From positions 1-22,831 of IMG/VR virus record IMGVR_UViG_3300036829_000074: DNA of 22,831 nt. The stretch is one strand, 5' to 3'. Below are positions 902 to 10,440 of the stretch, piece by piece (position 1 is the first letter of the stretch; every line of letters begins with the position of its first letter). Position numbers and translations under genes: made by a program. The notes beneath the pieces are model-generated. The model was not told the origin of the DNA and ran no database searches. It saw only the letters and a program-made list of their open reading frames with translations. Source of the DNA: a virus.

Positions 902-974
902 AGCGGGGTGGTGCAGTTGGTAGCACGCTGGGCTCATAATCCAGAGGTCGCGGGTCCGAGTCCCGCCCCCGCAA
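902..974 (+). tRNA. tRNA-Met (anticodon CAT), partly initiator-like
   Basis: A complete 73-base cloverleaf is visible. Acceptor arms are 902-908 and 967-973. The D stem is GTGC/GCAC with an 8-base loop. The anticodon stem is CTGGG/TCCAG with loop CTCATAA, placing CAT at 935-937. The variable loop is AGGTC and the T stem is GCGGG/CCCGC. The discriminator is A974, and no CCA is encoded (ACT follows). Position 1 (A) cannot pair with position 72 (A); an unpaired 1-72 is the hallmark of bacterial initiator tRNA. The anticodon-stem GGG at 29-31 is also initiator-like, but its partners are TCC, giving one G-U pair, and the D stem has the elongator-type U11-A24. The T loop is TCCGAGT, with C where position 55 is normally T. 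It may be a degenerate host-derived initiator tRNA or a specialised phage tRNA. Confidence 0.9.
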
Positions 975-1359
975 CTGAGAGACGCTGACGAAGCCGTCTC
1001 ATGTATTCCGCGTTCGCCGCACGACACGAAGTGCACCGGCACCTGTACTCGTCCTTGCGGGTGTAGCGAGCGCGAGTCCCATGCTCGGGGATGGAAGCCT
1101 GCTCTGCGCGGGTCTTCGCTTTGTGGTGCTCCCTGCAAAGCACCTGACACTTGGCCAGTTCCGCCTCCCTCTTCTCGACCGAGAGGCTCCATATGCGAGC
1201 CGGTTCCATGGCCTTGATCGAGGGGTCGACGTGGTCCACCTGAAGATCACTGGTGGACCCGCAGACAGAACATGGACCGTGCTCCCTGAGCCATGCGTCA
1301 CGACGTCGCTTGATCCAGGCAAGTTGGTAGTCACGCTTGGCTTGGCCGACGTACACCAT
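934..1359 (-). CDS. HNH endonuclease (141 aa)
   Basis: A small HNH nuclease of the free-standing phage type. A Zn-knuckle cysteine pair C30xxC33 is followed by the catalytic DH pair (D42-H43) in VDHVDP. Then come C75 and H78-H79 in CQVLCREHHKAKT, which complete the zinc site and the alpha helix of the beta-beta-alpha-metal fold. Residues 93-120 hold a second Cys motif (CRCTSC followed by RAANAEY), a tail common in actinophage HNH proteins. The last ~13 residues are encoded by the complement of the tRNA gene, and the stop falls in the tRNA anticodon loop. Relatives, as I recall them, end soon after the RAANAEY segment, so this extension is probably read-through into the tRNA. The gene opposes its plus-strand neighbours and has its own likely promoter. 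It may be a homing-type or packaging-linked nuclease; neither can be decided here. Confidence 0.85.
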   Translation of the reverse strand: MVYVGQAKRDYQLAWIKRRRDAWLREHGPCSVCGSTSDLQVDHVDPSIKAMEPARIWSLSVEKREAELAKCQVLCREHHKAKTRAEQASIPEHGTRARYTRKDEYRCRCTSCRAANAEYMRRLRQRLSVAGAGLGPATSGL

Positions 1360-5204: not shown

Positions 5205-8200
5205 TTAACGTCGCACTGGAGCCGGCTTACCGGCGTTGATGTCCGGCACTGGTGCCGCCCCCACGGCCCGGGGCGATCCGACGCACTGCGCGAGCTTCGC
5301 TCGCGGACTCTGTGCCTCGGTGGCGCACGCGGCGCTGATCGCGCCGAGCACGATCGCCTGGGCGGCCAGCACGCCCTGTTCGAGAGTGGGTGGGCCAGAG
5401 AACGCCTCCCACGGGCGCAGGTGTCCGGTGGCTGTCAGGACAGCTAGCGCACCCAGCACCGCCGAGGCGAAGGTGGTGTCGCGCGGCGCGACGGACACGC
5501 TGGAGTGCGCGGTCAGCACCGCGTTGACGACCACCGTGACGTGCTCGGTGGCGGTCAGGGAGGTGCTGGCCGAGAGCGCCGCGGTCAGAGGCACTCCATG
5601 GGTGGCCACAGCCTGTAGCGCCGCCGCGGCCGCGAGCACAGCCGCACCGTGATACACGATCGTGGCATTCGCCGACAACCCGGTGGTCTGCGCTAGATGT
5701 GCGGTGGGGAACACCGTGTCGCGCGGCTGTGCCGCCATGCCAGAGTGCGCGGCAAGGACGGCGGACGGACGCTGCGTGACGAACGCCGCCGAGGTCAGCT
5801 CCGTGGTGGCGGCCAACGTCGCGGACGGGTGCTGCGTAACGATCGCCGACGAGGTGAGCCCCGTAGTGGCGTGCAGCGCCGCCGCCGGCAACACCCTGAC
5901 GGACGCGGCCGCCACCAGCGAGCTGACCTCCGACAGCACCGCGTCGGCCGGCAGCGAGATGTCCGAGACCTCGACGCCCACCGTCGTGGCGGCGGTCAGG
6001 TGGGCGGTCGGCAACGTCGTAACAGACGCCGACGAGGCGAGCCCAGTGACGGCCGCCAGAGCGGCGGACGGACGCTGGTTGACCGCGGCCGCCGCAGTCA
6101 GTCCAGTGACCACGCTCAGATGCACGGTCGGGAGTTCGACAACGAACGCCGACGCGGACAGTCCAGCGACAGCCGCCAAGTGGGCGGATGGGAGCTGCGT
6201 GTCACGCGCGGCGGCGGTCAGCCCAGTGACGGCCGCCAGGGTGGCGGACGAGAACTTGGTGAGATGCGGCGCCACTGTCAGTGCAGTGACGGCCGACAAC
6301 GCGGCGTGCGGGAATTGCGTGTCGCGCGCGGTCACCGACAGCGCCGTGCTCGCCGTCAGCGCCGCCGCCGCTCGGGTGGTGTCTACCGGGGTGGTGGTCA
6401 GCCCGGTGACCGCATGCAGCGCCACCGCCGGGAACTCGGTGTCGTGAACCTGCCCCGACAGCGCCGCAGTGGCCGACAGAGCCACCTGCGGGAGCTGGGT
6501 GTCGTGCGCCGCCACTGTCAGAGCCGCGGTAGTCGCCAACGAGGCGGTCGGCAGGTGAACGCCGACCGCCGCCACCGTCAGAGCGGCGTGCGTCGCCAGT
6601 GTGGCGGTGGCGAACGTCGTGTCGCGTGCCACGGCCGCCAACGCGCTGACCGCCGATAGTGCTCCGGTGGGAAGCTCTGTGTCGGAGACCGAGGAGGTGA
6701 GCCCGGTGACCGCCGACAGCGTCGCCGTCGGCAGCTGCGTGTCGTGTACCGCGGCGGTCAGCGACGTGCTGACGCTGAACGCCGCACTGGGCAGAACGGT
6801 GTGCGTCGCCGCGACGGTCAAGTGCGCGGTCGCGGCGAGCGCACTTGAAACGGGGATCGTCTGAGCGGCGGAGACCGACAGCGCTGCCTGCGCCGACAGA
6901 GCCGCCACTGCCTGGGTGGTGTCCACCGGCACGGTGGTCAACCCGGTAGCCGCGGCCAGCGCCACCTGGGGCAGCGGGGTGACCGAAGCGGCGACCGTGA
7001 GCCCCGTGGAGGCACTCAGCGACGCGGTCACCACCTTGACCCGCGTCGCGTCCGCTGTGAGCCCCGTGGAGGCGCTCAGCGTGGCCGAGGCAAGGATGTG
7101 CCCACCGGCAGCCGTGACGGCCATCGCCGCGCTGGCGGCCAGGGTGGCGCTCGGGAAGATGTGGACCCAGGGACCGGTGGACGGGTAGAGAGTGCCGCTC
7201 GGGTACAGGTTCTGCCCGGGATACAGCGGATAGGGGCCGATGTCGATCTGAGACTGCCCCGCGAGCGTCGCGGACCCCGCGGGGCCACCGAGCGCCACCG
7301 AGGTCATCCCGGCGGTCGCCGACATGGTGACGGTGCCACCGTCCCGAACGGTGACGGCGACGGCGGACAGGTCAGTGGACGCGATCAGTGCGGCGGTGCC
7401 ACCGGTGACGTCGGTGGCGACCGAGGTCAACCCAGCGGTGGTACCGAGTGCCACCATCGGGAACGTCGTCACCGACAAATCGGTGGTCAACCCCGTGGGG
7501 GCCGACAACCCCGCCGTACCGAACTCGGTCGGCACCAGCGACAGGAGTGTGAGGCCGGACAGGTCCGCCGTCGGGAGTTCGATGACGAACGTCGCGGCGG
7601 TCAGCCCAGCGATGGCCGTTAGGGCACCAGTCGGAAGCTCCACGACCCCGGCGGCACTGGCCAGCCCAGTAGTGGCCGCCAGCGTCGCGGACGCGCTCCT
7701 GACGTCGATGGCGGTCGCCGCAAGCGCCGTGGAGGCGCTCAACGTAGCGACACCGCCGATGACATCGGTAGCTATCGGCGCCAGACCGGCGATACCTGGC
7801 AACGTCGCCGACGGGAGGACCGTCGGCGATGCGACCGCGGACAGACCCGTGCTGGCCGACAATGCCGCGTGCGGAACGTAGTTGACCGTGGCGACGCTGG
7901 TCAGCCCAGCGTTGACCGACAACGAGGCCGAGGCAGGGATGGCGTCGTACGCGGCGGCGATGAGCCCCGTCGTCGCACTGAGCGCAGCCACGGGGTGCTC
8001 AGTGTCGCTAGCGGCCGAAGAAAGCCCCGTAGTGGCCGCCAACGCCACGTGCGGGAGTTCGATGACCGATGCGGCAGCGGATAGGCCCGTGCTAGCCGAC
8101 AGCGCCGCGTGTGGGACGTAGTTGATCGTGGCAACACTGGCCAGCCCAGTGGAGGCCGACAGGGTGGCGTGCGGGAGCTGAGTGTCGAACGCCACCGCTG

Positions 8201-8366
8201 CCAGGCTGGTGGCTGCACTCAGGGCAGCGACGGGGCGTTCGGTGTCGAGCGCGACACTGACCAGTCCGGTGGTCGCGGAGAGAGTCGCCGCCGCGCTGAA
8301 AGTAGCGAAACCGTGCGGCCGCACCCACACGACGTACGCCGGAGTGCCCCTACCGAGACGCGCCAC
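5205..8366 (-). CDS. Giant ~20-residue repeat tail protein (1053 aa)
   Basis: After a 20-residue N-terminus, nearly the whole protein is a tandem array of about 47 imperfect 20-residue units. The consensus is roughly xAxLSAxTGLTxxAxDTxLP. I count about 17 units, then a Tyr/Pro/Gly-rich break at residues ~375-405 (the LYPGQ and LYPSG motifs), then about 29 more. The last ~70 residues are non-repetitive and start HLRPWEAFSG. The unit alternates small and hydrophobic residues with a turn at its end, as in beta-solenoids or stacked strands, which is inference. Similar Ala/Leu/Thr repeats and 'LYPG/LYPS' segments occur in actinophage tail proteins. GTG 8366 follows GAGAGGGG. No enzyme motif is visible; a structural fibre or surface-binding shaft is most likely. 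Confidence 0.75.
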   Translation of the reverse strand: MARLGRGTPAYVVWVRPHGFATFSAAATLSATTGLVSVALDTERPVAALSAATSLAAVAFDTQLPHATLSASTGLASVATINYVPHAALSASTGLSAAASVIELPHVALAATTGLSSAASDTEHPVAALSATTGLIAAAYDAIPASASLSVNAGLTSVATVNYVPHAALSASTGLSAVASPTVLPSATLPGIAGLAPIATDVIGGVATLSASTALAATAIDVRSASATLAATTGLASAAGVVELPTGALTAIAGLTAATFVIELPTADLSGLTLLSLVPTEFGTAGLSAPTGLTTDLSVTTFPMVALGTTAGLTSVATDVTGGTAALIASTDLSAVAVTVRDGGTVTMSATAGMTSVALGGPAGSATLAGQSQIDIGPYPLYPGQNLYPSGTLYPSTGPWVHIFPSATLAASAAMAVTAAGGHILASATLSASTGLTADATRVKVVTASLSASTGLTVAASVTPLPQVALAAATGLTTVPVDTTQAVAALSAQAALSVSAAQTIPVSSALAATAHLTVAATHTVLPSAAFSVSTSLTAAVHDTQLPTATLSAVTGLTSSVSDTELPTGALSAVSALAAVARDTTFATATLATHAALTVAAVGVHLPTASLATTAALTVAAHDTQLPQVALSATAALSGQVHDTEFPAVALHAVTGLTTTPVDTTRAAAALTASTALSVTARDTQFPHAALSAVTALTVAPHLTKFSSATLAAVTGLTAAARDTQLPSAHLAAVAGLSASAFVVELPTVHLSVVTGLTAAAAVNQRPSAALAAVTGLASSASVTTLPTAHLTAATTVGVEVSDISLPADAVLSEVSSLVAAASVRVLPAAALHATTGLTSSAIVTQHPSATLAATTELTSAAFVTQRPSAVLAAHSGMAAQPRDTVFPTAHLAQTTGLSANATIVYHGAAVLAAAAALQAVATHGVPLTAALSASTSLTATEHVTVVVNAVLTAHSSVSVAPRDTTFASAVLGALAVLTATGHLRPWEAFSGPPTLEQGVLAAQAIVLGAISAACATEAQSPRAKLAQCVGSPRAVGAAPVPDINAGKPAPVRR
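5411..8306 (-). repeat. Degenerate 60-bp tandem repeat array (coding)
   Basis: The DNA carries the same 60-base period as the 20-residue units, with recurrent blocks such as GTCAGCCCAGTGACGGCCGCC on the plus strand. Units vary at many positions, so this is an old, diverging array. It is interrupted at about 7152-7256 by the Tyr/Pro-rich connector. Shared blocks give scope for length change by unequal recombination. Confidence 0.75.
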
Positions 8367-8859: not shown

Positions 8860-9645
8860 TTAGAAGGTAGACGCGCGCTGGATCGCGGCGAATGACACAA
8901 TGCGCGGAGATGCACCTCCACCAGCCGGGAGGAACGACAGCATGTGTCCCGATCCCTTTCCGGACGTAGTGGAGATTGTGGCCTGCTTCGCGGTCACCGA
9001 CGTCTGGGTCGGCACCGGCGCGGAGTAGTTAGCCCACCCGAACGACGCCGTCGTGCCGCCTTGCGCGCCCTGGGTCCACGTCAGACTGTCTCCGGAGATG
9101 TTCGGGACGGAGCCCGAGGACAGCTTGCGTTCGTGGTCAAGCAGCACGATCACTGCCCCGCCGGCAACAATCGGGCCCGACAACACGGGCGCGGGACCGA
9201 TGACTGTGGTGGACGCCGAAGTCGCCGCTGTCCACGTGCCTATTTCATCGATCGAATCCGCGCCGGTCATGCAAGCCATCTGGACGGTCATGTAATCCGT
9301 CACGGTAGACGCTGAGTAGGTGATTACCGGAGCAACGGTACTACTGGAGTCGTAGGAAATAGACCAGATCCGGTGCCGCATCGAGTTTGTCAACGGACCT
9401 GTCGGACTAGTGTTGGCGTTGCCCAATTGTTCGTTATCTTTGCTAGACCAGCCCCCGGTGGCTGTCGCCGGAGTTGAGGGGTATGACGTGGTGGCGCTTC
9501 GCCACGCTCTGGCGACGACTACCAGGAGGTCCCCATCTACTGGCGCATTACCCGCAGTGGGAAACGCTGCCGTCAGCGACAGGCCAGTGCCGGCCGTGTT
9601 TGCCGCTGACGAAGCGGCACCCCATCTGATATTCGAGATAGCCAC
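8860..9645 (-). CDS. Adhesin-like beta-sandwich tail protein (261 aa)
   Basis: GTG 9645 follows GGAGGTGAG. The protein begins with a common N-terminal strand, then VDGDLLVVVARAWR, a Trp/Ser loop, ITYSASTVTDYMTVQMACMT, and a C-terminal set of strands ending SGHMLSFLPAG. It aligns along its whole length with residues ~300-605 of the 613-residue lyase: VDGDMMFCIARSSR, VTYAAGNTLTDTMTAQIF, SDGLTWAEGGQ versus GDSLTWTQGAQ, and AKQA near the end. This is therefore a free-standing copy of the lyase's second module. The wider family is a phage and bacterial all-beta domain with a 'GDLLVxxV' strand and a late 'A/S-x-LxPA' strand. The role is probably receptor or glycan binding, inferred from context. 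Confidence 0.65.
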   Translation of the reverse strand: MAISNIRWGAASSAANTAGTGLSLTAAFPTAGNAPVDGDLLVVVARAWRSATTSYPSTPATATGGWSSKDNEQLGNANTSPTGPLTNSMRHRIWSISYDSSSTVAPVITYSASTVTDYMTVQMACMTGADSIDEIGTWTAATSASTTVIGPAPVLSGPIVAGGAVIVLLDHERKLSSGSVPNISGDSLTWTQGAQGGTTASFGWANYSAPVPTQTSVTAKQATISTTSGKGSGHMLSFLPAGGGASPRIVSFAAIQRASTF

Positions 9646-9681: not shown

Positions 9682-10440
9682 TTAGTAGTAGGCGGCGCGC
9701 TTAACCGCTTGGTTGATATTCGTCGGACGCGCCGAACTAGTTGGGGCAGCCTTGATCGCGGCGTCGCCGACCATCCAACCAGAGGACACCGCTGTCACTG
9801 TGACATTGTCCGTGCCGTTGACCTTGTCCAATACGACAAGACCGCAGTTGAACGAGCTGCCGACGTTCGTAAAATTGTTAAGTCGGGTAGACCACCCCGC
9901 AGTACCCGCACTAGTGGGCACGGTCGCCGCGGCTCCAGCGCCGGAGCTATCCAGGGCCCACCCATACATCCGTACCACCATATCGGTGGCGCCCGGAGCG
10001 GGCGACAACGTTCCTTTCGCTGGCGACGTAGTAGTGGACGACCCCGAAGTGATCGCGGACACCGTATCCCCAAATGGTGTACCGGGATTGGCCCCGGTGT
10101 ACCGCAGGATCGCGGCGGCGACCAGCGCGGTAGCCGACGGCCGGAGTGTGATGCTGGTGCCTGACTCCGTACCGACGGCCGTCTTCTCGTAAAGATAGGC
10201 GCTGGTATCCGTGATGATCCCTGGTTGGGATTCCATCACCGTCCACCCGGTCGGCAGCGAAAACGACGTACCCGACGCGCCACTGCCTCCGTTGGGGTTG
10301 TTGTTAACCGCGCACAGGATCAATGCATCGCCAGCCACGATTCCCGACGGGTACGCCCATACCGCACCGGTCGCGTTGGAGACGGCAGCCGTAGTGGTCG
10401 TCGGCGGATACGATGTGAGGCTTGCGAATGCGAGCGCCAC
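9682..10440 (-). CDS. Adhesin-like beta-sandwich tail protein (252 aa)
   Basis: The start is GTG 10440 with a GGGAGGG element about twelve bases upstream; spacing is loose, so the start is moderately sure. The order of elements matches the same all-beta family as its neighbour: VAGDALILCAVNN, PTGWTVMES, SAYLYEKTA, SGTSITLRPSAT, ILRYTGANPGTPF, then a second sheet and a late WMVGDAAIKAAP strand. This family carries recurring 'PAGW', 'YRG(V/A)' and 'AAxxA(L/I)' elements. Sequence identity to the 8860 protein is low, so it is a separate branch. It sits at the start of the adhesion region, just after the Gp80-like fibre gene. Confidence 0.6.
   Translation of the reverse strand: MALAFASLTSYPPTTTTAAVSNATGAVWAYPSGIVAGDALILCAVNNNPNGGSGASGTSFSLPTGWTVMESQPGIITDTSAYLYEKTAVGTESGTSITLRPSATALVAAAILRYTGANPGTPFGDTVSAITSGSSTTTSPAKGTLSPAPGATDMVVRMYGWALDSSGAGAAATVPTSAGTAGWSTRLNNFTNVGSSFNCGLVVLDKVNGTDNVTVTAVSSGWMVGDAAIKAAPTSSARPTNINQAVKRAAYY

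Follow-up and report, generated by a model that had tools for sequence, protein, structure and literature searches.

The window analysed here (22,831 nt, the whole stretch taken from IMG/VR virus record IMGVR_UViG_3300036829_000074) carries a long ORF that consists almost entirely of one short repeat, and it raises the question of what such a protein builds, and on which part of the virion. The ORF lies on the minus strand (nt 8366 – 5205, 1053 aa), starts with GTG and has the sequence GAGAGGGG 6 nt upstream of the start. The preliminary description had located it correctly (5205 – 8366) and given no strand. Its parts, and the neighbouring genes that are relevant here, are listed in Table 1.

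Table 1. Features of the window that are discussed in the text.
Feature	Position (nt)	Strand	Basis
Tandem-repeat protein, 1053 aa, GTG start	5205..8366	-	ORF, lag analysis, unit profile
Residues 1-25: tag MARLGRGTP (first codon GTG) and linker	8292..8366	-	
Repeat block 1, residues 26-364, ~17 units	7275..8291	-	unit profile
Tyr/Pro-rich break, residues 365-405 (GQSQ...GPYPLYPGQNLYPSGTLYPSTGPW)	7152..7274	-	
Repeat block 2, residues 406-987, ~29 units	5406..7151	-	unit profile
C-terminal segment, residues 988-1053	5208..5405	-	
Upstream partner gene, 151 aa	8391..8846	-	homologues precede tagged repeat genes
252-aa protein ending NINQAVKRAAYY; domain fused to repeat body in L011, L018	9682..10440	-	
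Tail hub-like protein, 442 aa	11798..13126	-	phrog_1887 / phrog_177
Fibre-like minor tail protein, 511 aa	3659..5194	-	L002 homologue matches PTR, BppL_N
Alginate-lyase-2 domain (PF08787) protein, 613 aa	1806..3647	-	Pfam

Organisation of the repeat protein

The self-identity of the protein at lag 20 is 0.327, compared with 0.122 expected, and among 300 shuffles of the protein the best lag reached at most 0.165. A 20-position profile scores 44 units, the spacing of which is almost always exactly 20. Together with three degenerate units (residues 266 – 283, of 18 aa; one near residue 365; one near 787) this confirms the approximately 47 tandem 20-residue repeats that had been reported earlier. 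The division into two blocks by a Tyr/Pro-rich break also holds; the break has 41 residues, equal to two coil lengths. The consensus given in the preliminary description was xAxLSAxTGLTxxAxDTxLP. Units from the window and from the related contig L002 give S-A-T-L-S-A-S-T-G-L-T-A-A-A-x-D-T-x-L-P, in which A2, L4, A6, G9, L10, T11, A14, T17 and P20 are strong whereas D16 and L19 are weak. Unit positions 2, 4, 6 and 10 are hydrophobic and almost invariant, and the exposed positions vary. A conserved motif, LRPWEAF, begins inside the last scored unit and is followed, in the C-terminal segment, by a hydrophobic stretch (AGVxAAQAIxL); AF2 predicts a helix for this segment, with low confidence.

Relatives and age of the array

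A search beyond the window, as had been proposed for this repeat, found the same protein encoded on five related viral contigs (six with the window). The number of scored units ranges from 24 to 53, with the records of L018 and L012 ending within the repeat gene, and the products of L002, L019 and L011 have 1271, 974 and 966 aa, respectively. Searches of 50,697 annotated phages with tblastn, megablast and blastn found no relatives, although the BLAST low-complexity filter may conceal some, and a search of genome contigs recovered none; 12 tandem-pattern matches in the latter are other Ala/Gly/Phe-rich frames and were rejected as members of the family. There was likewise no match to the PDB (phmmer), or to Pfam and NCBIfam (hmmscan). 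The sole profile match of the window protein is phrog_31951, of unknown function, which matches several repeat stretches (E = 3.8e-6 for the window, 8e-21 for L002, 4.8e-10 for L019) but spans only about four units and comes without a function or a fold. Beyond this entry, the repeat sequence family has no name.

The ends and the break recur among the relatives. The N-terminal tag is conserved in L002, L019 and L012, while in L011 and L018 it is replaced by a domain like the 9682 – 10440 protein of the window, fused N-terminally to the repeat body. The Tyr/Pro break is conserved in L019, L012 and L018, more loosely in L002, and not in L011. The C-terminus with LRPWEAF is common to the relatives wherever the record extends that far. 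Between the window and L018, five hub-region proteins (557, 442, 159, 131 and 105 aa) are 91 – 96% identical, compared with 48% for the repeat protein. The repeat protein has thus diverged faster than the hub proteins, its putative platform, which is what one would expect if it faces a receptor.

The view that the units have diverged and are not a recent expansion is upheld for the window. Given the same residue, two units use the same codon at a frequency of 0.412, against 0.380 from codon usage, so that the choice among synonymous codons is almost random from unit to unit, and the most similar pair of units shares 77% DNA identity. A recent expansion is thereby rejected for the window; the array is old and is maintained at the protein level. 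Recent duplicates are present in L019 and L002 (unit pairs at 93% and 90%), and L002 also has a 240-bp tandem copy at 76%. Reciprocal-best units are collinear between the window and L019 (11, with 5.6 expected) and between the window and L002 (11, with 5.1 expected); collinearity with L012, L018 and L011 is not clear.

Predicted fold

The structure prediction suggested in the preliminary description gave an answer that depended on the alignment supplied. With four sequences, AF2 reached a pLDDT of 47. For nine units (residues 547 – 726) it reached 78.9 (pTM 0.68) with an alignment of 16 non-overlapping in-register fragments, which was built from the repeats and hence favours a periodic model. 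This model is a regular one-chain beta-solenoid with one coil per repeat, in line with the regular solenoid-like structure anticipated in the preliminary description, and its predicted strands are strictly 20-periodic (unit positions 1-6, 10-15 and ~18). The inward positions 2, 4, 6 and 10 are 91 – 100% hydrophobic and of low entropy; the outward positions vary.

Foldseek returned nothing below E = 0.02 for the model among PDB entries, and nothing at E <= 0.001 among viral structures. Using VIA-align, the model overlays parallel beta-helices (NosD, RbmB, K5A lyase, polygalacturonases, tailspikes and the adhesin PfbA) over 177 – 180 residues, with Z of 14 – 16 and rmsd of 2.3 – 2.9. The window protein differs from these in its strict 20-residue coils and Ala/Leu core, and at 3 – 10% identity there is no sequence similarity. 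The earlier statement that the unit has no named fold therefore needs to be divided: on the evidence of the modelled overlay the fold is probably of a known type (parallel beta-helix or beta-solenoid), while the sequence family is still undescribed.

Curlin (CsgA) offers a further comparison, as it too is built of short tandem strand-arc-strand units with one coil per repeat (PMC10192328). Its core is N-x-psi-x-psi-x-Q in repeats averaging 23 residues, compared with an Ala/Leu core and 20 residues in the window; inward Asn/Gln ladders of the curlin type are not found in the window repeat, the inward residues of which are Ala/Leu, and the conserved positions are without Asn or Gln. The overlaid helices are right-handed, but the study of curli indicates that shallow alignments may lead AF2 to choose the wrong hand for such solenoids (PMC10192328), and our claim is therefore limited to a solenoid of approximately 22 nm, without handedness.

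Gene neighbourhood and location on the virion

The repeat cassette of the window comes after genes for the major tail protein, a chaperone-like protein, the tape measure and the hub, and a fibre-like gene and then an alginate-lyase-domain gene follow the repeat gene. The position after the tail hub genes is shared by the relatives, with conserved order. The designation 'tail protein' given earlier is thus supported as far as the tail-module position in the window goes, but does not extend to all such cassettes, as elsewhere they adjoin head genes. In L191 and L205, the tagged cassettes (see below) are found with genes for terminase, head protease and major head protein. The related gp13 (phrog_14065) of Streptomyces phage Keanu is encoded between the major capsid and head-to-tail adaptor genes, adjoining a w_159-type gene. 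Placement at the tail tip is therefore likely for the window phage, judging by gene order, and is not put forward as general. Keanu gp13 resembles the window protein in having long 20-residue repeats in a virion-gene region, and differs in its repeat sequence, in a LamG-like N-terminus instead of the tag, and in its head-proximal position.

Several minor observations may be added. Keanu gp13 (L221:9106-12426) is annotated as hypothetical, and its LamG-like domain is followed by the 20-residue repeats within the head module. The alginate-lyase-domain protein of the window is 72 – 80% identical in L002 and L041, and its C-terminal half resembles the window 8860 – 9645 protein. The hubs of L011 (2518-4143) and L002 (2706-5078) carry an insertion, absent from the window hub, with LFPSPSLYPS / LYPGPTVF repeats similar to the Tyr/Pro break of the repeat protein. 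Towards the start of the window, a tRNA-Met(cat) gene (nt 902 – 975, plus strand) overlaps the end of an oppositely oriented ORF (nt 934 – 1359, minus strand) that has a CxxC...HxD arrangement and reads like an HNH endonuclease.

The N-terminal tag and the upstream partner

The tag and the gene upstream of the repeat gene are both conserved, and both had been missed in the preliminary description. The sequences MARLGRGYP of L019 and MARFGRGFP of L002 match the pattern MAR[LF]GRx[FY]P fully; the window tag has T where the pattern has F/Y. A scan with this pattern found 46 stretches (L175 – L220) with 34 distinct phage ORFs, 26 of which encode tandem-repeat proteins, 25 of them at lag 18 – 22 (13 at lag 20, five at 18, four at 22, two at 21 and one at 19; the remaining one is at 14). 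The window period fits this range. Among control ORFs from the same stretches, 10 of 400 are tandem repeats, several of these lying on contigs with tagged repeat genes, where they may be antisense frames of those genes. The repeat sequences of tagged proteins are unlike each other, for example 'INPTGIASGEAFGTPSVQA' (L182), 'PAKRRALGVATETDSAITLG' (L186/L191) and 'RVLAGAPGAYTLTGADAALLAT' (L205). Strand-like hydrophobic alternation is weak among them (3/25 at p<0.05, Fisher 0.04; p=0.09 for the window family itself), and a common fold is therefore not claimed for the class.

Of 32 tagged repeat genes, 15 are directly preceded by a homologue of the 151-aa gene, with a QFPLGxEP motif (16 if L180 is counted). 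In at least eight other tagged cases the upstream product has a C-terminal tail resembling QAVNRASxY, possibly a second docking peptide. Two window proteins have tails of this type, the 9682 – 10440 protein and the 8860 – 9645 protein (AAIQRASTF), both on the minus strand, and such tails were also seen in upstream ORFs of L183, L186, L199, L203, L206 and L214.

These data would fit a modular phage surface system, in which a MAR[LF]GRx[FY]P docking peptide and an upstream partner of 150 – 175 aa present swappable rods with a period of about 20 residues, the bodies, unrelated in repeat sequence, being exchanged or re-invented while the anchor stays unchanged. We offer this tentatively, as a possibility somewhat short of even. 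If it is correct, the nine-residue tag is a handle for finding and annotating many 'hypothetical' phage repeat proteins, and points to a swappable construction of virion rods; the fixed period in unrelated sequences then raises the question of whether a coil of about 20 residues is what selection keeps constant. The repeat gene family, and especially the arrangement of tag, partner and interchangeable repeats, appear to be undescribed in the sources searched. The tag sequences were found in no paper of the literature searched. Keanu gp13, which comes closest among named repeat proteins, lacks the tag. Stretches from Shagrat, Samy, phiAsp2, Rowa, AGM16 and Madraxi showed neither the tag nor a clear 20-residue repeat protein, and the frames listed by a loose screen of them look like noise.

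A possible virion rod and its alternatives

On balance, we lean towards a rod-like virion adhesin or spacer, a one-chain beta-solenoid whose place on the virion is probably the tail tip, with the N-terminal tag as its anchor. Each 20-residue unit would form one coil, with two strands of 5 – 6 residues (A-x-L-x-A and L-x-x-x-A) plus a third, short one; Ala and Leu would fill the interior, and Ser/Thr/His together with variable residues the surface. At the 4.8 A per repeat of the curli solenoid (PMC10192328), about 47 coils would give a rod of ~22 nm, in which the Tyr/Pro break may introduce a kink or knob. The tag MARLGRGTP would most likely be what fixes the rod in place, aided by the 151-aa protein or the hub. 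Towards the host envelope, the rod would present either the conserved segment at its C-terminus or the repetitive surface of the rod itself. This explanation is supported by the periodicity, the AF2 model, the inward hydrophobic residues, the VIA overlay (Z up to 16), the protein-level conservation of an old array, the recurrence of tag or fused domain, break and C-terminus among the six contigs, the faster divergence of the repeat relative to the hub, and the combination of tag, repeats and partner, which recurs in unrelated phages. The fold is a prediction; what we infer is the anchoring, the oligomeric state, the location (head or tail) and the host contact. The low pLDDT with four sequences, the lack of significant Foldseek matches, the repeat-built alignment and the unreliable handedness of such AF2 solenoids weaken this explanation, and the head-module position in other phages weakens its tail part.

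The same low first pLDDT is open to other readings. The adenovirus fibre is an example of an intertwined trimeric shaft, the triple beta-spiral, the units of which have two strands with alternating hydrophobic residues, a turn and a Pro-containing loop. The window unit, with two strands around a TG turn and a Pro loop, resembles these, and phage fibres are usually trimers. The protein could thus form such a shaft or a similar one, with two short strands per unit, the monomeric solenoid being an artefact of AF2. As the window period is 20 and not ~15, and the monomer reached a pLDDT of 79 with the 16-row alignment, we regard this as unlikely. A flexible, largely disordered linker rich in Ala/Thr/Ser would agree with the low-complexity composition as well as with the four-sequence prediction; it is difficult to reconcile with strict 20-residue spacing across ~47 units, the conserved inside hydrophobic pattern and the confident second model, and is the least probable of the alternatives. 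That the protein is an appendage of the capsid or neck, and not of the tail, is suggested by the head-gene surroundings of the L191 and L205 cassettes and of Keanu gp13; since the repeat gene comes after those of the tail hub, in an order shared by the window and the relatives, this too is improbable for the protein described here.

Other 20-residue repeats in phages

Many further 20-periodic phage proteins were found by scanning for a spaced series of three A-x-L-x-A...L units. Comparison of repeat profiles, with position-permuted profiles as controls, links those of L043, L106, L063, L085 and L061 to the window repeat (z of 5.1 to 8.5), while L081, L046, L087 and L053 were not clearly above the permuted controls. 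The filamentous haemagglutinin repeat (PF05594) was rejected as a family for the window protein, there being no match at E <= 10 for it or for the L002 protein; this family does match the 20-residue repeat proteins of L081, L046 and L087, with E down to 1e-35. Lastly, the protein encoded by L020:3-1706 has repeats of the 20-residue type on either side of an enzyme-like domain that resembles glycerophosphodiesterase.
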